DNA of 47,162 nt, from the IMG/VR virus record IMGVR_UViG_3300009431_000028, positions 1 to 47,162 of that record; one strand, 5' to 3'. This DNA comes from a virus. This document shows, piece after piece, positions 2,904 through 47,162 of this stretch (its first letter is position 1; the number at the start of each line of letters is the position of its first letter). A program made the translations under genes and the position numbers. The notes beneath the pieces are model-generated. The model made no database searches. It worked only from the letters and a program-made list of their open reading frames with translations, and was not told the DNA's origin.

Positions 2904-3860
2904 ATGTCAGTATTACGTAAAGGAAAGATCCACGCATCACTACCAGGAACAGATGACATTAAACTGGCCTGTGTAGGCAAGACCCTAATTGAAATGCCCC
3001 ACTCAAGCAATGGTACCCAGGTACTCCTAGATATAACGAGATCCACTGCCATTAACACAGAATTTGACTTCGATGCCAACTATCAAAACATGACTCTCGG
3101 TATCACAGATGCAGCCTGGGCCAACGAAATGCCCTGGTTCATCTACCTAATCAATGGCACTAACGCTTCAGCAGGCGTTCAGCCAATGATCTCTCGTAAC
3201 CCCTGTATGGCTATAACCCCAGCAGAAGGCTACTTTCATTATTCAGACGCCGCTGCCGATACAGATGACGAATTATCAGTGGTTGTTCCCTACGCTGATG
3301 GTACCGACTACTCAGGTAAACCCTGCGTCCTCATTGGAGCCTGTACAGCAACATATGATGGCACAGAATGGACCCCAGACCTCTCCACTGCTTTTGATGG
3401 TGGATGTACTGAAGACGCTCTTAGAGCAGCCTTTTCTACTGAGTATACTATGCCAACAGGACAGAATGGTGCCTCAGCAAGTACGTATTTAATGGCTAAT
3501 GGAGGTACAGCACCTGTATTCTCCGCCAATACCTATAGATATAAAATTAATAGGAATGGCGAATGCTTCATAATGATTTATTTAAATGCTGATGGAGGTA
3601 CAGACGGAGCAGGTGCAGTTCAAGCGCAACTTGTGTTCCCATACGCATCTGCTGTACAGAACTATGGTCAGATTTTTGGACGGTGTAGCTCTGCTACTGG
3701 AGGCTATCACATAATGACTGCACTACATGCAGCATCTGTCGGCTCCTATGCACTACTCTATGAGTTGGATAACAGTGTTGCAACCGTACTCAACGGAGAT
3801 TTTACTAACGGCGGCCGTACTTTGTACCTCAACGGGCCTTATCAAGCGTTTAATAGCTAA
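2904..3860 (+). CDS. Putative tail fibre / receptor-binding protein
   Basis: A 318-residue protein preceded by an AGGA ribosome site. The N-terminus (MSVLRKGKIHASLPGTDDIK) could be an attachment segment. The rest is a mixed beta-rich sequence with many aromatic and Gly residues, and no coiled coil or enzyme motif that I can recognise. Its position between other fibre genes and the head-tail adaptor suggests an appendage component. Receptor binding is an inference only. Confidence 0.65.
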   Translation: MSVLRKGKIHASLPGTDDIKLACVGKTLIEMPHSSNGTQVLLDITRSTAINTEFDFDANYQNMTLGITDAAWANEMPWFIYLINGTNASAGVQPMISRNPCMAITPAEGYFHYSDAAADTDDELSVVVPYADGTDYSGKPCVLIGACTATYDGTEWTPDLSTAFDGGCTEDALRAAFSTEYTMPTGQNGASASTYLMANGGTAPVFSANTYRYKINRNGECFIMIYLNADGGTDGAGAVQAQLVFPYASAVQNYGQIFGRCSSATGGYHIMTALHAASVGSYALLYELDNSVATVLNGDFTNGGRTLYLNGPYQAFNS

Positions 3861-5182: not shown

Positions 5183-7258
5183 ATGGGTCAAAACGAAGCT
5201 AAAATCAAATCTATCACATTAGATGACTTCTCAGGCGGTCTCAACTCCAACGAGCTATCCAGCCAACTCAAGGATAACGAGTTCACAGACTGCCAGAACG
5301 TCATATACTACAACGGCTCCCTACAACAGGTACCTGGATTCATTAGACATTCTGCTCAAATAGGCGGCTCTGGTAGCACTACCCGTATCCTAGGCATCCA
5401 TGACTTCAAGAAACGTGACAGCACTCAGCATCTAATCGCCTGTGCTGGTAACAGCATCTACACCTTCAACGCTAGCACCAATAAATGGGTAGAAGTCTGG
5501 GACTCAGCAGGATCTCCTCTATCTACTACTGCCTTACACAGCATCGTAACTGTCAATAACAAGGCAATAGGTACCAATGGTACATCAATGCCTTGGGTTG
5601 TCTATGACACAGACAGTGACGGCGATATAACTGATGAAACAGGTGTATTCATGGACTCCTTCGCAGATGGCTGGTCTGCTACTAGCCTTTGTAAGTATCT
5701 ATGCACCTTTAATGATCGTCTAGTAGCTCTTAACGTCACTATAGCTGGAACTACCCTCCCTACCTCCCTCCTCTATTCAGACAGGGATTCTCCTACAGGA
5801 TGGGATGAAACAGAACAACGCCTTAACTTTGATACAGACGATGGCCAAGAAATAACAGGTGGCAGACAACTAGGTGAAAAACTCCTAGTCTTCAAACAGA
5901 ACTCCATCGGCTACGTAACTGGCTACGGTGACTATACCTTCCAAACAGTCCGTGACTGGAAAAAGGGTGTAGGCTGCGTATCAGGCTATACAGTACAAAC
6001 AGGCTATTTCCAAGTAGAAGGCGTACTACGTGAAGTAGTCATCTTCCTCTCCCACGAAGGCTACAAAGCCATTGACGAAGGTGGTAACGTATACGCTCTC
6101 CCAATGCCCGGTCAGGGTGAAGAATACAAATGCTTCGAACACTTTGATGGCTTAGCCTCAGGTAGCCTTAACACAGCAGTAGGCTGCTTCTACCGCAAAC
6201 GTAACTGGTATTTTGGCTTCTACCGCTCCTCCTCAGGCTCCTACAACGACTGGGGCTCAATCTATGACTACAACACAAATAGCCTCTGGCCTATTAAAGA
6301 CATCAATGCTAATTGCTGTGCCCTCGTCTACAATTCCACAGCAGGTGAATATGAGATGTACATAGGCACTACAGACGGTGTCATCCTACGCATGTCCGAA
6401 TCCACTAAAGGTGTAGAAGATGGTACTGAACTAGTAACTACAGGCAGCTTTGAAGGCATCGCAGATGGCACAGCCCCACCCACAGGTTACACAGCCTACG
6501 GCTCTACCACCACCTGTGAAGCAGACGACAACGACACCATTACTCCCTACCAAGGCTCTATCCAAGCTAAGGTTGTAACAGACGCAGTCAACGAAGGTAT
6601 CTATCAAGATATAACTACTACAGTAGGTAAACGCTACCGTGTATATGCCTACGGCTACGCTTCAGCAGGAGAAGTACAAATAGCCAAAGAAGACACAGAC
6701 GCCTCAAACGAGGTAACAGGCTCCTCAGCAAGCTCGAAAGCATGGGGCCAAATGACAGTCACCTTCACTGCAACAGCAACAACATCCCGCATTACCCTTA
6801 AATCAGACACAACAGCCGCTTCTACCTTCTACGTAGACGACATCTCAGCCCGCTGCATTGAAGTAGACGCCTACGCCATATCCAAATACTTTGACTTCGA
6901 TGACGAAGGCGAAATGAAGTTCCTCCGCGAACTCGTATCCTTCGTCTCAGCCACAGATACCGGCGGTCTAACCCTAACAATCGACTACGATAAAGGCGCT
7001 GACTCCACTAACACCTCAGACACTATTGACCTTACCTCAGGCCAAATCAACTGGTCCAGCGAAATCGACTGGTCTGTTGCCATAGATTGGGACAGCTACG
7101 AAGAAGTAGACGACTCCCATACAGCAGATGGCCTAACCCAAGCAGCCTTTAGAACACTAAGATTTAAAATAGAAAACAACAACGGCTCCTCAGACTTCCA
7201 ATTCAACCGCATAATAGTAGCCGTTAAACCCCTAGGAAGACGTTGGTTCAGATACTAA
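5183..7258 (+). CDS. Tail tube/nozzle-like structural protein with carbohydrate-binding-like insertion
   Basis: A 691-residue protein starting LDDFSGGLNSNE, a beginning common in large podovirus tail proteins. Most of the sequence reads as repeated beta-strands with Trp/Tyr turns, like a beta-propeller tail nozzle. Residues of about 412-557 (TTGSFEGIADGTAPPTGY, later YRVYAYGYASAGE and FYVDDISARC) match the pattern of CBM4/9-like galactose-binding domains, suggesting a glycan-binding insertion on the tail. It is coupled to the next gene by TAATG. The nozzle role is inferred from order after the adaptor. Confidence 0.75.
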   Translation: MGQNEAKIKSITLDDFSGGLNSNELSSQLKDNEFTDCQNVIYYNGSLQQVPGFIRHSAQIGGSGSTTRILGIHDFKKRDSTQHLIACAGNSIYTFNASTNKWVEVWDSAGSPLSTTALHSIVTVNNKAIGTNGTSMPWVVYDTDSDGDITDETGVFMDSFADGWSATSLCKYLCTFNDRLVALNVTIAGTTLPTSLLYSDRDSPTGWDETEQRLNFDTDDGQEITGGRQLGEKLLVFKQNSIGYVTGYGDYTFQTVRDWKKGVGCVSGYTVQTGYFQVEGVLREVVIFLSHEGYKAIDEGGNVYALPMPGQGEEYKCFEHFDGLASGSLNTAVGCFYRKRNWYFGFYRSSSGSYNDWGSIYDYNTNSLWPIKDINANCCALVYNSTAGEYEMYIGTTDGVILRMSESTKGVEDGTELVTTGSFEGIADGTAPPTGYTAYGSTTTCEADDNDTITPYQGSIQAKVVTDAVNEGIYQDITTTVGKRYRVYAYGYASAGEVQIAKEDTDASNEVTGSSASSKAWGQMTVTFTATATTSRITLKSDTTAASTFYVDDISARCIEVDAYAISKYFDFDDEGEMKFLRELVSFVSATDTGGLTLTIDYDKGADSTNTSDTIDLTSGQINWSSEIDWSVAIDWDSYEEVDDSHTADGLTQAAFRTLRFKIENNNGSSDFQFNRIIVAVKPLGRRWFRY

Positions 7259-7476
7259 TGCTACCCCCTAAAGCACCCCCAAAAGACTACGATAACCCAG
7301 AACTAGACGCCTGGCGCGTATCAGTCTGGCAATACTTACTCCAAAACCCCTCTAACACAGTCCCTACCACAGCTACCTCTAACGGCAGCAAAGGCGAATG
7401 GGCTTTTAATACAACTCATCTATACGTATGTGTAGCAGAAAACACCTGGCGCAGAGTAGCACTATCCGCCTGGTAA
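7258..7476 (+). CDS. Small tail-associated protein
   Basis: A 72-residue protein. I place the start at the ATG overlapping the preceding stop (TAATG) rather than an upstream ATG inside that gene. The sequence begins MLPPKAPPKDYDNPELDAWR and ends with HLYVCVAENTWRRVALSAW, an aromatic beta ending frequent in phage fibre tips. The role is unknown, but the coupling argues for a tail component. Confidence 0.7.
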   Translation: MLPPKAPPKDYDNPELDAWRVSVWQYLLQNPSNTVPTTATSNGSKGEWAFNTTHLYVCVAENTWRRVALSAW

Positions 7477-15069: not shown

Positions 15070-15305
15070 TGCTACTAGACCTAGGTACACCAAACAGAGC
15101 AGGAATAGAGTGGATAACAGTAGGTACTGGCCTTATTACAGGACTAGGACTACTATTCTATGCCCTTAAAACAGCTGTTAAATACCTTAATGAATGGATA
15201 AAAGAATCATCTCTTTTAGCCAATACAATAAAGGAACTATTCAAATATGGGCTCAAAAAAATGCCTACACTGCGCAAAGATTCTGACCTCAGAGAACTGG
15301 ACTAA
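15069..15305 (+). CDS. Holin-like small membrane protein
   Basis: A 78-residue protein with one clear transmembrane segment (residues of about 15-32, TVGTGLITGLGLLFYALKT) followed by a charged helical tail (KDSDLRELD). Its start overlaps the lysozyme stop by one base (TAATG). Size, single membrane span and location in the lysis cassette suggest a holin or pinholin. Its last 59 bases overlap the HNH gene in another frame. Confidence 0.65.
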   Translation: MLLDLGTPNRAGIEWITVGTGLITGLGLLFYALKTAVKYLNEWIKESSLLANTIKELFKYGLKKMPTLRKDSDLRELD

Positions 15306-15615
15306 ATCAGCTAAGAAGCCTTATTGCAGAGAATGCGTTCGTATAGTAAATAGGACGTACTATAAGAACCGTACATCTTCAGTAAAACGAAATAAGGTAA
15401 AAGCTATTGCATATAAAGGACGTAAATGCGCTGTATGTGGCCTTGTGGATGAGTGTAACGCGATATATGATTTCCATCACATCGATCCTACAACTAAAAT
15501 AGACTACCCCTGTCGAATGTTTCAGAGAAAATGGAGTCAAGCTACTGAGGATGAGTTAGATAAGTGCGTGTTAGTCTGCGCAAACTGCCACAGGAGGATT
15601 CATTATGGCGATTAG
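15247..15615 (+). CDS. HNH endonuclease (free-standing homing type) 1
   Basis: A 122-residue protein with an N-terminal CXXC...CXXC finger (CLHCAKIL, then CREC) and a C-terminal HNH core: CAVCG, YDFHHIDP with the catalytic His, then CANCHRRIH. The second half closely resembles the HNH protein at 15898-16290, so the two are paralogues. It overlaps the holin-like gene by 59 bases and the spanin gene by 11, as expected for an inserted mobile endonuclease gene. There is no intron around it. Confidence 0.88.
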   Translation: MGSKKCLHCAKILTSENWTKSAKKPYCRECVRIVNRTYYKNRTSSVKRNKVKAIAYKGRKCAVCGLVDECNAIYDFHHIDPTTKIDYPCRMFQRKWSQATEDELDKCVLVCANCHRRIHYGD

Positions 15616-15895
15616 CGCGATACTTGCAGGCCTGAGTCTAAAGAAGATCCTAGCTAACCGCTGGGTATTACTAGCTCTATCTTATATAATACTAGCTACT
15701 TCCATGTATATGGTAGGTCGTCTACATCAATGGAAGGTAGATGCAGTAAAGGATCTTAAAAAGACCAATGAATCCCTTATTGAACATATTGAAAAGAAAG
15801 ATGAAGTAAAGAGACACTATGAACGTAGGTTTAAAGATGAGTGTATACTATCAGGAAGAGTGTCTATGAATAGTAAGAAAGGCTGCAAGGAATAG
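15605..15895 (+). CDS. Rz-like inner-membrane spanin
   Basis: A 96-residue protein with a hydrophobic N-terminal segment (residues of about 19-38, WVLLALSYIILATSMYMVG) followed by a periplasmic charged helix (KDLKKTNESLIEHIEKKDEV) that could form a coiled coil, the layout of i-spanins. Spanins join inner and outer membranes during lysis of Gram-negative hosts. AGGAGG lies 9 bases before the start. I see no embedded Rz1-like lipoprotein, so the outer-membrane partner is unidentified. Confidence 0.72.
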   Translation: MAISAILAGLSLKKILANRWVLLALSYIILATSMYMVGRLHQWKVDAVKDLKKTNESLIEHIEKKDEVKRHYERRFKDECILSGRVSMNSKKGCKE

Positions 15896-15897
15896 CC

Positions 15898-16290
15898 ATG
15901 ATCTGCACTAAATGCAATCAACCAATGACAGAAGAGACCAGGGCGTTTTCGAGCCCCAGCGTACCCTTAAGCTACTGTAAACGCTGCTATCATAAGTACC
16001 AACTCAAGACTAACTTAAGAAGACGAAGAGCTAAAAAGGACAGAGCAATTGGCTACAAGGGCTTTAAATGCCTACACTGTGGACTACAAGATCCAGATCA
16101 CCCAGAGTTGTATGACTTTCATCACATAGACACCACTAAAAAACGAGCTACAATTCAAAGACTTATAACAAATAAGTGGGAGACGATTAGACAAGAGCTT
16201 GATAAGTGTGTGATGCTGTGCGCCAATTGCCACCGCAAAGAGCACGCGCTGCTTGCTTACTATAGAGGCATCGTCACAGACTGGACTTGA
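15898..16290 (+). CDS. HNH endonuclease (free-standing homing type) 2
   Basis: A 130-residue paralogue of the HNH protein at 15247-15615. Both have an N-terminal CXXC...CXXC finger, then a basic linker, KG(F/R)KC, CGL, YDFHHID, ELDKCV and CANCHR. The shared order and sequence suggest duplication or repeated insertion of one homing gene family. The TGA stop is also the first three bases of the 57-bp dispersed element copy at 16288. It is the last gene of the late + strand unit. Confidence 0.88.
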   Translation: MICTKCNQPMTEETRAFSSPSVPLSYCKRCYHKYQLKTNLRRRRAKKDRAIGYKGFKCLHCGLQDPDHPELYDFHHIDTTKKRATIQRLITNKWETIRQELDKCVMLCANCHRKEHALLAYYRGIVTDWT

Positions 16291-16370: not shown

Positions 16371-16392
16371 GGCCCCTTACGGGGCCCTTTTT
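16371..16392 (+). terminator. Rho-independent terminator of the late operon
   Basis: GGCCCC-TTAC-GGGGCC forms a 6-bp GC stem with a 4-base loop, followed by CTTTTT on the + strand. It lies between the last late gene and the last early gene, which converge here. On the - strand the hairpin is followed only by TTT, so termination of early transcripts would be weaker. Confidence 0.85.
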
Positions 16393-16428: not shown

Positions 16429-16650
16429 CTAGTCAATATCATGAGCTGCATTACAAGTAGATAGACAATAGTCTGAGTAATACGTGTCATTTAGCTTTAA
16501 ACAGCTTTTGTAGCAAATGTCTCTTTCAACTATGTTTTGTCTACCTTCCCATCCAACATCTTCTCCAATTACAAACCCCACTATCCCATATAGTGCGGCT
16601 ACTGCGACAATACCTGGTACGATTAGCTTTTTAACTGTTGATTCCTTCAT
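16429..16650 (-). CDS. Small membrane-targeted protein with twin CX3C motif
   Basis: A 73-residue protein with an N-terminal hydrophobic segment (residues 9-29) and a polar C-terminus containing CYKSC, eleven residues, then CLSTC. This CX3C-X11-CX3C spacing is the signature of disulphide-linked helical hairpins such as CHCH and alpha-hairpinin peptides; some plant alpha-hairpinins inhibit trypsin. The gene has GGAGG before its start and lies 9 bases downstream of an exported trypsin-like protease gene. A role as partner or inhibitor of that protease is my inference only. Confidence 0.75.
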   Translation of the reverse strand: MKESTVKKLIVPGIVAVAALYGIVGFVIGEDVGWEGRQNIVERDICYKSCLKLNDTYYSDYCLSTCNAAHDID

Positions 16651-16659
16651 GGTTCCTCC

Positions 16660-17580
16660 TTAGTCTATTGGAATATACTCTTCACCTATTACCTTAGGTT
16701 TGGTTGAATATCCATTTTTATACGGCTCTATCTTGACATTATTACGTATAGCTGGGAACTTAATTTCTTCTAAGAACTCGGTAACTGAAGAAAGAGGAAT
16801 GTTAAAACCAATATTCCACATACCATATATACCTGCATAGATGACTCCATTGACTTCTCCATTCATATTGTATACAGGACTACCGCTATTTCCTGGATAT
16901 GTCATACAAGCTAGCTGTTCTGCCCATGACCCTAGTATCATAAGGCTCTCTTTAGTCTTAAACCCTACCTCAGTAAACCATGGTCTACCCATTGGATTAC
17001 CAATAACTACAATAGGTTGATGTATCTTAAGAGGCTCTGTAGCAATAGGAGACGTAAGCATAGGCCTATCAACCTGAATAATTGCTAAATCAGCCTTACC
17101 ACTAGTAGCAACTGTTTTCCCTGGTATAAGTCCCATATACTGGGGACTTTCTACTTCTGAGCCACATACAGTAGAGTTACCACCGATATGGTTATTGGTC
17201 AATATATAGGACATATGGTCATTAGAATAGACAACAGTACCTGTACCCCTAGCCCTTCTACCATTCTGACAATCACCACCATTAGGTACAAACCATATCC
17301 TAACCACTGAATCATGCATCCTTTGAAACACTCCAGGAGAGATATCAGTTATATCCTTACTTTTAGGACTAGGCAACGTATAACGCTTATTATTCAATAT
17401 AGCATATGTCTGTTGTAAGGCATTAAAAGTACGTATAACAGCCGTACCGGCCTTACCTACAACATCTATTGCCTTATCAGGTGTTGCTACATATACTACT
17501 AATACACACCCTAATAGACATCCTAATATTAGACTTGTACCTTCACTAAATATCTTTCTATACCACTTCTTTTTCCTCAT
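16660..17580 (-). CDS. Membrane-anchored trypsin-like serine protease
   Basis: A 306-residue protein with a basic N-terminus and a membrane segment at about residues 15-32, without an obvious cleavage site, so probably anchored with the enzyme outside the cytoplasm. After a 55-residue stalk, the chymotrypsin/DegP-like domain has a complete triad: His131 (LTNNHIGG), Asp164 (GKADLAIIQV) and Ser232 (PGNSGSPVYN). There is no PDZ domain. It overlaps the upstream gene by four bases and has AGGAGG. The substrate is unknown; envelope proteins of the host are plausible. Exported proteases of this type are rare in phages. Confidence 0.88.
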   Translation of the reverse strand: MRKKKWYRKIFSEGTSLILGCLLGCVLVVYVATPDKAIDVVGKAGTAVIRTFNALQQTYAILNNKRYTLPSPKSKDITDISPGVFQRMHDSVVRIWFVPNGGDCQNGRRARGTGTVVYSNDHMSYILTNNHIGGNSTVCGSEVESPQYMGLIPGKTVATSGKADLAIIQVDRPMLTSPIATEPLKIHQPIVVIGNPMGRPWFTEVGFKTKESLMILGSWAEQLACMTYPGNSGSPVYNMNGEVNGVIYAGIYGMWNIGFNIPLSSVTEFLEEIKFPAIRNNVKIEPYKNGYSTKPKVIGEEYIPID

Positions 17581-17840
17581 TTATCCTCCTTCCAGCATGG
17601 GTTAGTACTTAACTCATCTACATGTCTCTGTAAACAAAGCATATTATTAATAACCTTATCTAACTCTTCTCCACATACACAATCCTTAGTAATAGTAACA
17701 TCTTCCATAGGAGGATAATGTGGTTTAGGTACCTTCACGACCTTCACGCGGGCACAAGCAGGAGCAGTAACTACCAGTATTACTCCCAATAATAGCCATA
17801 ATATAGTATACCCAGTAAAGAATCCTTTATTATACTTCAT
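17577..17840 (-). CDS. Exported Cys-containing small protein
   Basis: An 87-residue protein with an N-terminal hydrophobic signal (residues 10-29) ending TAPACARV, which could be a signal peptidase I site; the lipobox fit is poor. The mature part has a Pro/Lys segment and Cys residues in CVCGEE, LCLQRH and NPCWK. It is coupled to the protease gene by ATGA. It may be an envelope partner of the protease, but no family is recognised. An outer-membrane spanin is an alternative I cannot support. Confidence 0.65.
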   Translation of the reverse strand: MKYNKGFFTGYTILWLLLGVILVVTAPACARVKVVKVPKPHYPPMEDVTITKDCVCGEELDKVINNMLCLQRHVDELSTNPCWKEDK

Positions 17841-18069
17841 AATCTATTTCCTTTCTATACTGACGTCTATTAATATAGGCCTTACACCAAGATATAGCAG
17901 CCTTCTCTGTCTTAAAGAACTTAGGCTTACAGAAGGTATGAGAACATACAATATAATTTTGATGTTCTTCATCTGGTAAAATCCAATGCTTAGCTGTATA
18001 AGGCTCAGAGATAGCAAATTGATACTTACCATTAAACTCATTCTTAGTTATTACTATCTTATACTTCAT
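17830..18069 (-). CDS. Hypothetical early protein
   Basis: A 79-residue protein rich in Lys, Tyr, Phe and His (for example EPYTAKHWILPDEEHQNY). It has no signal peptide. AAGGAGGAG stands before the ATG. Its end overlaps the next gene by 11 bases. The compact mix of strands and one helix (KAAISWCKAYINR) resembles small phage accessory proteins. The function is unknown. Confidence 0.7.
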   Translation of the reverse strand: MKYKIVITKNEFNGKYQFAISEPYTAKHWILPDEEHQNYIVCSHTFCKPKFFKTEKAAISWCKAYINRRQYRKEIDYEV

Positions 18070-18122
18070 ATTACTCCTCCTTAACTATGTAGCCATATAC
18101 TTAGAGGGTTTAGATCCGTCTT

Positions 18123-18797
18123 TCACTCACTAACCTTTCTAAACCCTATAACCCACACCCAGTCGTTACGATCCCATGCGTCGGGGCCGTAGATTGAGTT
18201 CCAGACTTTTATCCATTGCTCTTTGATGTTGTCTCTCACATAGGGCACTGTGTGCGAATAGCGGATGCCTTCGTTTTGCATGTCTTTTTTTGATATATCC
18301 TGCACCCTCTCTACTCGTATGTCGGTGATCTCAAGTACAGCAGGAGAAGCTGCACGGGGAAGGTTTTTCGCAGGAAACGAATTCCATTTAAAATCTTTTT
18401 CGTTAGGGCTTCCACCTGAATCAATAATTAGCTTTCCATCTTCATCAACATAAGCACACGTCTCTGTATCGTCCCACAGATAGTGTGCAGCTATTGGTCT
18501 TGCCCTTGTAAACGCAAATGCTTCTTTATCTTCACCTTCTAGATCTACCATCTTGAAAGGATGTTGCACCCAAAGCCGATCACCTACTTTTCCGTAGGGG
18601 CATTGAAAGTCGATGACATTTTCAAATGGATTATCTTGGTCGATATTCTGAAACGAGAACGTATTGGGACCGCTCCACCATCCAGTAGTATGCGTTTTGG
18701 GCGGCTGCGGCTTGATAATCCTCCGCGTCTTCATCTTGCGGCCATCAAGTATGGCTTTCACCATCTCTGCGTTGAATATGATGGGGCGTTCTTTCAT
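18123..18797 (-). CDS. ASCH-domain-like phage protein
   Basis: A 224-residue protein beginning MKERPIIFNAEMVKAILDGR. I use this ATG, which has GGAGG seven bases upstream, and not an ATG 66 bases earlier. The sequence follows a phage family with KTRRIIKPQ, CPYGKVGDRLWV, ITDIRVERVQDIS and a closing WVWVIGF, related to ASCH domains, which are thought to bind RNA or modified bases. The precise activity is unknown. It lies in the distal early operon between secreted proteins. Confidence 0.78.
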   Translation of the reverse strand: MKERPIIFNAEMVKAILDGRKMKTRRIIKPQPPKTHTTGWWSGPNTFSFQNIDQDNPFENVIDFQCPYGKVGDRLWVQHPFKMVDLEGEDKEAFAFTRARPIAAHYLWDDTETCAYVDEDGKLIIDSGGSPNEKDFKWNSFPAKNLPRAASPAVLEITDIRVERVQDISKKDMQNEGIRYSHTVPYVRDNIKEQWIKVWNSIYGPDAWDRNDWVWVIGFRKVSE

Positions 18798-18862
18798 TAC
18801 AGAACCTCCTATAAGGCCGTTAAATCCAAACGCTTGCGATATTGCAGATATTATTAAAGCCA

Positions 18863-19294
18863 TTACTCACCAACCTTTCGGCCTTTGAGTTTATCCCAAA
18901 TAATCTCTGCCGTTTTCGGTGTTATGTTTATTGAGTACATATGGGTTAGCCACTCATCGAATGTTATCGGCGGCTTGTCGTCGTGGTATTCTTTGGGTAC
19001 GCCCATAAAAGTTTTCCTAAAATCCTCTTTAGTTATAAGCGGCTCATCATCGGGGAGGGCGTTGAATATGGCTAACGTAGAACAATCTGGCTTAATCATA
19101 CATTGAAGCGTTTTGCACCATTGTTTAAACTGTTCCTTTTTCACTACATCCTCTGGTTCATGCGTCAGTAGTAATACTTGGTCAAATCTGCATCCTTTTA
19201 AACATTTACCCCAGCGGACAGTCCTAACCGTTAGGTCTGGTCCATACACTTTATTTGGCTGCAACGTCTCACTTACAATTAAAATATCATACAT
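18863..19294 (-). CDS. Hypothetical early protein
   Basis: A 143-residue protein starting MYDILIVSE at the ATG that follows GGAGG by four bases; an upstream ATG would give five more residues. The fold looks alpha/beta with a hydrophobic first strand (YDILIV) and a second strand (VLLLTH). The C-terminal part is helical (FDEWLTHMYSINITPKTAE). I recognise no family. Confidence 0.72.
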   Translation of the reverse strand: MYDILIVSETLQPNKVYGPDLTVRTVRWGKCLKGCRFDQVLLLTHEPEDVVKKEQFKQWCKTLQCMIKPDCSTLAIFNALPDDEPLITKEDFRKTFMGVPKEYHDDKPPITFDEWLTHMYSINITPKTAEIIWDKLKGRKVGE

Positions 19295-19305
19295 CGGGCC
19301 TCCAA

Positions 19306-19998
19306 TCAATCTAAGCTACTCGTATTAAACATAGCTACTCCCCCTACAGGAAAGATAGCATCTCCAAACCATTTAGATACAACACCTACTACACCGCCTT
19401 TACCATCTACTACAGGACTACCAGACATACCAGGCAATATAACCCCTGATACCCATGTCATTCTAAAGTTACGATCGCCTGGGTCAATACGCCACAGTTT
19501 AGAGTATTTAAGCTCATTACCTCTAAGTACGATATCATTACCTTTTATGGTAATAACTACCTGCTTCCAGTAGGGTTGTACTGCCCATAGATCCCTATCC
19601 AATATAACACCATCATTAGGGTCTTCTACCCACTCCTGATCTACTATCTCTAGCCTAGTCCTATGTCTATTAGCTGTACCAGGTACCCTACATATATCAG
19701 TACCATTAGGGTCCATATCACTACTCATAATATGAGATGAGGCATATTCGCTACCCTTATATATGTATCTAACAAAGGTTCTCTGGATAAAGGCGGGAGC
19801 ACAACAATGTCCAGCAGTCCATACCCTGGATACACCCTTCCTATCCTTAGCTACAAAACCGCTACAATAAGGCTCTCCCTCATTAATTAATAGCACTGTA
19901 TCCTTCATTACCCTCTTTACCTTACGAGGAGTACCCGCCCATACCATGGAAGGTAGTAATAAGGAAAGGAGAATCAAGTAGATTGTTAGACATTTCAT
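19306..19998 (-). CDS. Secreted trypsin-like serine protease
   Basis: A 230-residue protein with a typical signal peptide (residues 1-21, cleavage likely after VWA). The protease domain has a complete triad: His64 (WTAGHCC), Asp101 (NGTDICRV) and Ser192 (LPGMSGSPVVD). Cys45 and Cys65 lie where the His-loop disulphide of trypsins sits. Overall it is more like bacterial secreted trypsins than like the membrane-anchored protease at 16660-17580. It overlaps the start of its upstream neighbour's stop by four bases (ATGA). It likely acts in the periplasm or outside the cell; the target is unknown. Confidence 0.88.
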   Translation of the reverse strand: MKCLTIYLILLSLLLPSMVWAGTPRKVKRVMKDTVLLINEGEPYCSGFVAKDRKGVSRVWTAGHCCAPAFIQRTFVRYIYKGSEYASSHIMSSDMDPNGTDICRVPGTANRHRTRLEIVDQEWVEDPNDGVILDRDLWAVQPYWKQVVITIKGNDIVLRGNELKYSKLWRIDPGDRNFRMTWVSGVILPGMSGSPVVDGKGGVVGVVSKWFGDAIFPVGGVAMFNTSSLD

Positions 19999-20288
19999 TT
20001 AGAGTTCTCCCCCTTGTACTCCTTAGCCTCTTCTTTAACATTCTTCCAGTGCTCTGCCCAACGACAACCTAAACTACAAATATACTTAGTCTGGTCTGGA
20101 TGTTTCTCAAATAGACTATTTCGCCTATCCACTGCATAGCTGCATACGTTCTTACACCGTTGCACTGTCCACGCAACGTCATTGGTCGTTTCTGACATAG
20201 GCTCTAAAACTAATAATCCAGCCCATACCTGCCCACATATAAGCACTATTAACAGTACTATACACCATATAAATAATAGTCTATTCAT
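19995..20288 (-). CDS. Exported small protein with twin CX3C motif
   Basis: A 97-residue protein. I start it at the ATG giving MNRLLFIWCIVLLIVL, which follows GGAGG, rather than nine codons upstream. The signal ends QVWAG, nearly the same cleavage site as the neighbouring protease. The mature part has CKNVC, 21 residues, then CSLGC, the paired CX3C arrangement of helical hairpins. Its stop overlaps the protease start (ATGA). The adjacent pairing of protease and twin-CX3C protein occurs twice in this genome. Confidence 0.75.
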   Translation of the reverse strand: MNRLLFIWCIVLLIVLICGQVWAGLLVLEPMSETTNDVAWTVQRCKNVCSYAVDRRNSLFEKHPDQTKYICSLGCRWAEHWKNVKEEAKEYKGENSK

Positions 20289-20985: not shown

Positions 20986-21171
20986 TTAAAGCTCCATCCT
21001 TATAACCCATGGTTTAACTAGATTATCTGCCGGTCTGTACTCACGCCACTCTTCCAGATGCATAAACATCGGGAGCCATCCCTCCCACATCTCTCTAGAT
21101 TCCACATCAATCTCTTTAAAGTGCTCATATACCTGTCCTGTAAGCCAATTAACCCTGGTCTTCTCTAACAT
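20986..21171 (-). CDS. Hypothetical early protein
   Basis: A 61-residue acidic, Trp-rich protein (REMWEGWLPMFMHLEEWREY). It is coupled to the MazG-like gene, which ends within its first codons. No known domain. It may be a small inhibitor-type early protein, which I cannot support further. Confidence 0.62.
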   Translation of the reverse strand: MLEKTRVNWLTGQVYEHFKEIDVESREMWEGWLPMFMHLEEWREYRPADNLVKPWVIRMEL

Positions 21172-21500
21172 ACCTTACCCCCATGTCTCCTACTCCTGGT
21201 CTTATTATAGGCCATCTTAACCGCTAATGCATCAGCTAATGGCACGTTATATGCACCACATAGATCAAATACCCTTATAAGTATATCAGCCATCTCTACA
21301 GCAAAGCCTTCTGGCTTCTTAGTTACATCATCATATTCAATAGTGGAGACAGAAGACCCCACCCTATACGCTTCTAAACATTCAGATACCTCAGAATGGA
21401 TAAGGGCCAAGCATTCTGGTATCTGTCTATCAGTATCCCACCACCCCTTATCTACTGCTGTAGCATGAGCCTTTTGACACATCTTATCAATAGTTTTCAT
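21165..21500 (-). CDS. MazG-like nucleotide pyrophosphohydrolase
   Basis: A 111-residue all-helical protein with the metal-binding pattern of MazG-type enzymes: IHSEVSECLEAYR in the first helix pair and FAVEMADILIRVFDL in the second, then KMAYNKTRSRRHGGK, which is typical of phage members. These enzymes hydrolyse nucleoside triphosphates to monophosphates plus pyrophosphate. In phages they are proposed to lower ppGpp or clean nucleotide pools. A GGAGGG site lies 4 bases upstream. Confidence 0.88.
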   Translation of the reverse strand: MKTIDKMCQKAHATAVDKGWWDTDRQIPECLALIHSEVSECLEAYRVGSSVSTIEYDDVTKKPEGFAVEMADILIRVFDLCGAYNVPLADALAVKMAYNKTRSRRHGGKVC

Positions 21501-36240: not shown

Positions 36241-36384
36241 CTAGTTACATGAACAAAAGTCACCCACACAGCAACACACAACACACTCACCTCTTACACA
36301 TACCACCTGACAAGCCTGACTCTCGACCACTGCACCTAGTACAATCCCAGCGATAAACCCTAATATCATGGTATATTTAAGCAT
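36241..36384 (-). CDS. Exported Cys-rich miniprotein (47 residues)
   Basis: The product starts MLKYTMILGFIAGIVLG, a signal or anchor, and continues with eight Cys in 22 residues (CQVVC, ECVVCCCV, FCSCN). The start overlaps the preceding stop (TAATG) with GGAGG upstream. A disulphide-stabilised envelope or secreted peptide is likely; alternatively it binds metal. The short length leaves some doubt. Confidence 0.62.
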   Translation of the reverse strand: MLKYTMILGFIAGIVLGAVVESQACQVVCVRGECVVCCCVGDFCSCN

Positions 36385-36602
36385 TATACCTCCCTCCTTA
36401 TACACTCCTTACAGCACACGTACTTATCATTCTCATTATTAAACCGATGCAAGGCCAACTCTACCGTAGTACATTCACAGCAAAATATACTACCACATAT
36501 CTCACACTCCTCAAACATATCATCCTTAATAGTATTCTCACACTCCTTACATTTAAAACATTTCTCCAACTCAGCCGATAGCTTTTCACCTAGTAAGCTC
36601 AT
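36384..36602 (-). CDS. Multi-zinc-finger small protein
   Basis: A 72-residue protein with ten Cys in CXXC pairs (CFKCKEC, CEICGSIFCCEC, CCKEC) resembling a RING- or FYVE-like cross-brace. No signal peptide, so probably cytoplasmic and zinc-binding. GGAGG precedes the start. It lies directly downstream of element copy 3. Confidence 0.72.
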   Translation of the reverse strand: MSLLGEKLSAELEKCFKCKECENTIKDDMFEECEICGSIFCCECTTVELALHRFNNENDKYVCCKECIRREV

Positions 36603-46938: not shown

Positions 46939-47162
46939 ATGACAGTTCACTACTCTAAAAAGAGTATCGTTGCAGATCTTGATATCATTGATGCCTCTCC
47001 CTCCCTAGACCTCAAAGACTCAGACTGCGCAGATGCAGATATCAATGCTCAATTAGCATGTAACGCTACTACAACTACCTCAGGTGCCGAGGATATTGAT
47101 GTAACCCTAAAACAACAGGTTAACGGCACCTTAACAACCTTCCTCACAGCCGATGCTGATGG
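46939..47162 (+). CDS. Tail fibre/spike protein, beta-helix type (N-terminal part; continues at 1)
   Basis: The first 74 codons of the 516-residue fibre gene, starting MTVHYSKKSIVADLDIIDAS after AGGAG. The frame stays open to the end of the window and continues in frame through the repeated segment to the stop at 1439. The N-terminal part is acidic (DLKDSDCADADINAQ) and may be the virion attachment domain. Confidence 0.88.
   Translation, partial: MTVHYSKKSIVADLDIIDASPSLDLKDSDCADADINAQLACNATTTTSGAEDIDVTLKQQVNGTLTTFLTADAD
47051..47162. repeat. Terminal direct repeat, right copy
   Basis: Identical to bases 1-112. See the left copy. Both copies read the same frame of the fibre gene. Confidence 0.95.

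Follow-up and report, generated by a model that had tools for sequence, protein, structure and literature searches.

Gene content and layout of the protease locus

The window, i.e. the whole stretch of 47,162 nucleotides taken from the record of an uncultured virus, carries an exact terminal direct repeat of 112 bases (1-112 = 47051-47162) and therefore very probably represents a complete phage genome. The minus strand, read from about 36.6 to 16.4 kb, encodes the early and replication functions (exonuclease, DNA polymerase, UvsX and a MazG-like pyrophosphatase), and the plus strand carries the terminase, portal, tail and lysis genes. The protease locus forms the extreme end of the minus-strand block and faces the lysis region, with a terminator-like hairpin (16371-16386) in between. 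Since the locus lies on the same strand as, and downstream of, the DNA polymerase, UvsX and MazG genes, early or middle expression is suggested, and its position at the end of the early/replication block favours action during infection. Consensus promoters were counted in the window below chance expectation and were thus uninformative.

The window was compared with two related phages from IMG/VR, both incomplete and referred to here as L002 (27.8-kb contig) and L042 (36.2-kb contig). The genes of the locus and its surroundings are as follows.

15605-15895, plus strand: i-spanin-like protein of the lysis region, with a transmembrane (TM) segment, helical, two C-terminal Cys; also kept in L042; no o-spanin candidate embedded in it
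16429-16650, minus strand: 73-aa protein with N-terminal TM segment and CX3C-X11-CX3C; no homologue found
16660-17580, minus strand: protease 1, membrane-anchored HtrA/MarP-like serine protease core lacking a PDZ domain; triad H131/D164/S232
17577-17840, minus strand: 87-aa putative lipoprotein and o-spanin candidate with non-canonical lipobox APAC; found on the downstream side of protease 2 in each of the three phages
17830-18069, minus strand: 79-aa protein between the modules, no assignment
18123-18863, minus strand: 246-aa phage protein (phrog_874); insertion relative to L002 and L042
18863-19309, minus strand: 148-aa protein, no assignment; insertion relative to L002 and L042
19306-19998, minus strand: protease 2, chymotrypsin-type with signal peptide; triad H64/D101/S192; kept in the two related phages
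19995-20288, minus strand: 97-aa exported protein with CX3C-X21-CX3C and a predicted helix-loop-helix; not beside protease 2 in L002 or L042
20652-20933, minus strand: 93-aa lipoprotein with six Cys and lipobox LTAC; belongs to the same exported block
21165-21500, minus strand: MazG-like pyrophosphatase, four genes from protease 2 here and its direct upstream neighbour in both relatives

Both proteases and both small twin-CX3C proteins named in the initial annotation lie on the minus strand as listed, with triads, Cys spacing, membrane anchor and signal peptide as it had described, and with good ribosome sites. That annotation had, however, left out the 87-aa putative lipoprotein and the three genes (79, 246 and 148 aa) which separate the lipoprotein gene from protease 2 in the window.

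The two genes at 18123-19309 exhibit a third-position GC of 0.43-0.44, as against 0.27-0.32 in the surrounding protease genes, a composition that would be consistent with separate acquisition. In the lysis region, HNH-like ORFs with Cys pairs of the zinc-binding type (15247-15615 and 15898-16290) lie on either side of the i-spanin-like gene; the L042 gene has no such ORFs around it.

Two dissimilar serine proteases

Inspection of the protease 1 sequence placed the triad His131/Asp164/Ser232 within the motifs NNH, ADLA and GNSGS, and a TM segment near residues 17-33. The protein matched Pfam Trypsin_2 (PF13365) with an E-value of 4e-14 and 54 bits, above the cut-off of 27.6. It resembles HtrA/DegP/DegS and MarP in its catalytic core (6e-10 to the DegP chain, 1e-13 to the MarP model), its intact triad and its N-terminal membrane anchor. 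On the other hand it is phage-encoded, it scores far under the NCBIfam equivalog cut-offs (51 versus 250 for MarP), and a Pfam scan gave no PDZ domain, only about 30 residues following the core where HtrA proper carries its C-terminal PDZ. No close homologue was found in IMG/VR or in phage records, nor anywhere in the L002 and L042 contigs, both of which lack part of the genome. The distant matches among phage records were of the Do/Deg type, several of them from records that seem to be bacterial.

Protease 2 has a signal peptide and the complete triad, His64/Asp101/Ser192, albeit its match to Trypsin_2 (E 4e-5, 24.7 bits) falls below the Pfam cut-off of 27.6. With the secreted chymotrypsin-type proteases (PF13365/PF00089) it shares the triad, the GMSGSP motif, a Cys that immediately follows the active-site His and another Cys 20 residues before it; it differs from them in the sub-threshold score and in a hydrophobic residue at the position of the S1 Asp of trypsin. 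The triad and Cys45, Cys65, Cys66 and Cys103 are invariant in the orthologues of L042 (61% identity) and L002 (43%). Outside these two uncultured phages no homologue was found, including in a search of bacterial genomes, and the phage records searched contained almost no comparable exported serine proteases. The AF2 model of protease 2 (mean pLDDT 34) was of too low confidence to show a double beta-barrel fold.

Duplication of one protease into two was considered and rejected, as the two sequences lack significant similarity outside PGxSGSP; the initial annotation had rightly judged a simple duplication unlikely. A known defence-system protease was also rejected, since the only matches, to RT-Protease_XI models, were weak and came through the protease core.

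The initial annotation had further pointed out that plant alpha-hairpinins with paired CX3C motifs can inhibit trypsin. These inhibitors use an Arg located between the Cys pairs (PMC7191063). Six positions ahead of the catalytic Ser, where trypsin has Asp, protease 1 has M226, protease 2 has V186 and the protease 2 orthologues have Ile or Leu, so that neither protease has the Asp at this position, with the proviso that loop lengths may differ. Judged from these residues, a preference for Arg/Lys, and with it a hairpinin-style inhibition through Arg, would be unlikely. The loop between the Cys pairs of the 73-aa protein, LKLNDTYYSDY, is also devoid of Arg, and the proposed inhibitory pairing is weakened accordingly; the corresponding loop of the 97-aa protein contains RR.

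Neighbours of protease 2 in related phages

Synteny with the window extends over a large part of L002, and L042 is the closer relative (78% identity for the MazG-like protein, 61% for protease 2). A search with the DNA polymerase of the window returned, besides the L002 contig, distant phages only. In L042 the order is MazG (1113-1472), protease 2 (ORF 1453-2259), lipoprotein (2252-2533), two short genes and a convergent lysis region. The L002 order is MazG, protease 2 (overlapping MazG by 7 bases), a 73-aa TM protein and the lipoprotein (6997-7320). The gene that accompanies protease 2 in all three phages, on its downstream side, is thus the putative lipoprotein (17577-17840 in the window).

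The 97-aa gene is absent from the orthologous place beside protease 2 in both relatives, albeit it may lie elsewhere since the contigs are incomplete, and neither protease 1 nor the 73-aa CX3C gene is found beside the lipoprotein gene in L002 or L042. Of the earlier picture of two protease-partner modules in the envelope, the exported proteases and twin-CX3C proteins remain, with the host envelope as their likely place of action, but the statement that each protease is paired does not hold for protease 2, which both relatives keep with its triad and without an adjacent small protein of this kind, a situation that the annotation itself had named as contrary to its model; the conserved adjacency is with the lipoprotein-like gene. 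The 79-, 246- and 148-aa genes, a YopX-like gene, the 93-aa lipoprotein gene and a 61-aa gene likewise lack counterparts at this place in L002 and L042, which marks the locus as a hot spot of gene gain.

The lipoprotein assignment is putative, the three phages having APAC, APGC and TPGC where the consensus lipobox reads [LVI][ASTVI][GAS]C. Like phage o-spanins of the Rz1 type, the protein is small, contains prolines and Cys, and has an i-spanin-like gene elsewhere in the genome (15605-15895), which is kept with its two Cys in the window and L042. A lipobox scan gave no o-spanin candidate within or adjoining that gene. Since 17577-17840 was the sole lipoprotein candidate with conservation, it is a candidate for the o-spanin. 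Unlike phage o-spanins, it is encoded on the early strand, has a non-canonical lipobox and matches no family.

The module could accordingly be linked to lysis, with the lipoprotein as o-spanin partner of the i-spanin-like protein and protease 2 helping to dismantle the outer envelope. Separated spanins and deviating lipoboxes are documented (PMC6139136), and a small L002 gene (6783-7004), which encodes a 73-aa TM/helical protein, shares 8 bases with the lipoprotein gene, an arrangement resembling a separated i-spanin/o-spanin pair. However, the Rz-like match of this protein (E 0.2), like the other spanin matches, was non-significant, the protein is short for an i-spanin, its gene has no counterpart in L042 or the window, and the lipoprotein gene lies away from the lysis genes. 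We regard the lysis reading as possible but doubtful.

L042 encodes a rhomboid intramembrane protease (3007-3672; PF01694, 36 bits, cut-off 22.6), which lies between the i-spanin-like gene, which it overlaps, and the convergent junction; no match to it was found in the window or in the L002 contig.

The twin-CX3C motif and the proposed envelope module

The 73-aa protein has Cys46/50/62/66 in the arrangement CX3C-X11-CX3C and its start is preceded by AAGGAGG; the 97-aa protein has Cys45/49/71/75 in the arrangement CX3C-X21-CX3C, two further Cys within the signal segment, and GGAGG upstream of its start at 20288. Composition-preserving shuffles reproduced a twin CX3C at a frequency of 0.001 for the 73-aa protein and 0.001-0.007 for the 97-aa protein (mature/full), and the pairing of Cys in both proteins is beyond chance. 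For any twin CX3C genome-wide, three were observed where 0.62 were expected, an expectation to which zinc-finger-like and Cys-rich proteins contribute most. An AF2 model of the 97-aa protein computed without alignment (mean pLDDT 74.6) has helices at residues 35-54 and 64-93 with one CX3C in each, and this prediction agrees with a hairpin. A fold search with the model gave no significant match.

The two small proteins exhibit no similarity to each other. No close homologue of the 73-aa protein was found in phage records, L002 or L042, and none of the 97-aa protein in IMG/VR, phage records, L002 or L042. A third twin CX3C occurs in the L002 orthologue of the lipoprotein (6997-7320), where an insert of 24 residues, absent from the orthologues of the window and L042, contains CX3C-X8-CX3C (CYNYC-X8-CTSLC). 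The motif thus occurs in two of the phages, in three distinct exported proteins encoded at this locus, and no instance of it was seen there in L042. This distribution is best explained by a recurrent or shuffled add-on and not by an obligate protease partner.

The tight gene coupling in the window, with a 4-base overlap between the 97-aa gene and protease 2 and a 9-base gap between protease 1 and the 73-aa gene, could be taken to mean that each twin-CX3C protein serves the protease next to it as a dedicated inhibitor, chaperone or activator. The non-random Cys spacing, the precedent of trypsin inhibition by some plant alpha-hairpinins and the similarly low third-position GC of the protease 1 and 73-aa genes (0.27 and 0.30) would fit such a role. 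However, an overlap of four bases also joins the lipoprotein gene to protease 1 and is therefore unspecific. The lack of a 97-aa gene next to protease 2 in L002 and L042, the S1 positions of the proteases, the Arg-free loop of the 73-aa protein and the dissimilarity of the two small proteins also speak against dedicated partners, which we consider improbable.

The early-block location and the variation of the accessory genes between the relatives would suit a role in superinfection exclusion, by analogy with T4 Spackle, in which the exported proteases and small disulphide proteins would block a second phage by cleaving receptors or by binding an incoming tail enzyme. Exclusion genes often vary between related phages. 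Spackle is an early, exported, helical and disulphide-bonded protein with a 97-aa precursor (PMC7677548), all features that the 97-aa phage protein shares or is predicted to share. On the other hand Spackle has one disulphide only, with Cys at other positions, and homology was rejected since the two sequences gave no alignment at E<=100. An exclusion role is conceivable, but we hold it only tentatively.

The reading that we prefer, with a probability of about 0.5 as a description of the locus, is an envelope module consisting of protease 2 and the small lipoprotein (17577-17840) at the end of the early block, together with lineage-specific accessories. Its function may be envelope takeover, lysis or exclusion, and we infer localisation, disulphides, substrates and roles of the module proteins along the following lines. 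Protease 2 would be secreted, probably held by disulphides around the active site, and may cleave envelope proteins of the host (or of an incoming phage). The lipoprotein would reside at a membrane, where it may localise protease 2 or act as o-spanin in lysis. Protease 1 and both twin-CX3C proteins would be lineage-specific additions to the same exported block, and the twin-CX3C parts would be disulphide-braced helical hairpins serving as small periplasmic binding modules, not as dedicated inhibitors of the adjacent proteases. Points that count against this reading are its basis of three phages, two of them represented by incomplete contigs, the non-canonical lipobox, and the three genes that lie between protease 2 and the lipoprotein gene in the window. 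A more specific version, in which the secreted chymotrypsin-type protease and the lipoprotein are the fixed core of an envelope-takeover locus and the hairpin is an interchangeable binding unit shuffled among stand-alone exported proteins and the lipoprotein itself, is speculative and rather unlikely.

Protease folds and the hairpin motif are already known. The phage proteins share the four-Cys CX3C-Xn-CX3C arrangement with plant alpha-hairpinins, including the helix-loop-helix predicted for the 97-aa protein, but they bear TM or signal segments, have longer helices and match no family profile, and the 73-aa protein lacks the Arg. Mitochondrial small Tim chaperones also have a twin CX3C, with which the spacing of 11 in the 73-aa protein may be compared; the phage proteins differ in their lack of a Pfam match and of a fold match (97-aa model), in being membrane-anchored and in their bacterial context. 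A limited search of the open-access literature found no description of the fixed pairing of secreted protease and lipoprotein in this phage lineage, nor of the wandering twin CX3C.

The lineage keeps one exported serine protease and a small lipoprotein across divergent genomes. If the module acts on the host envelope, it would give easy access to the ways in which phages remodel or seal the periplasm, and the presence of the twin CX3C in several proteins of the locus would illustrate how small disulphide modules move between phage genes. The envelope role and the movement of the motif are presented as leads, not as demonstrated functions.

At the start of the early block, an ORF of 54 residues (36241-36405) has a hydrophobic segment at its N-terminal end and contains eight Cys (CQVVCVRGECVVCCCVGDFCSCN); it is a candidate for a small Cys-rich exported protein.
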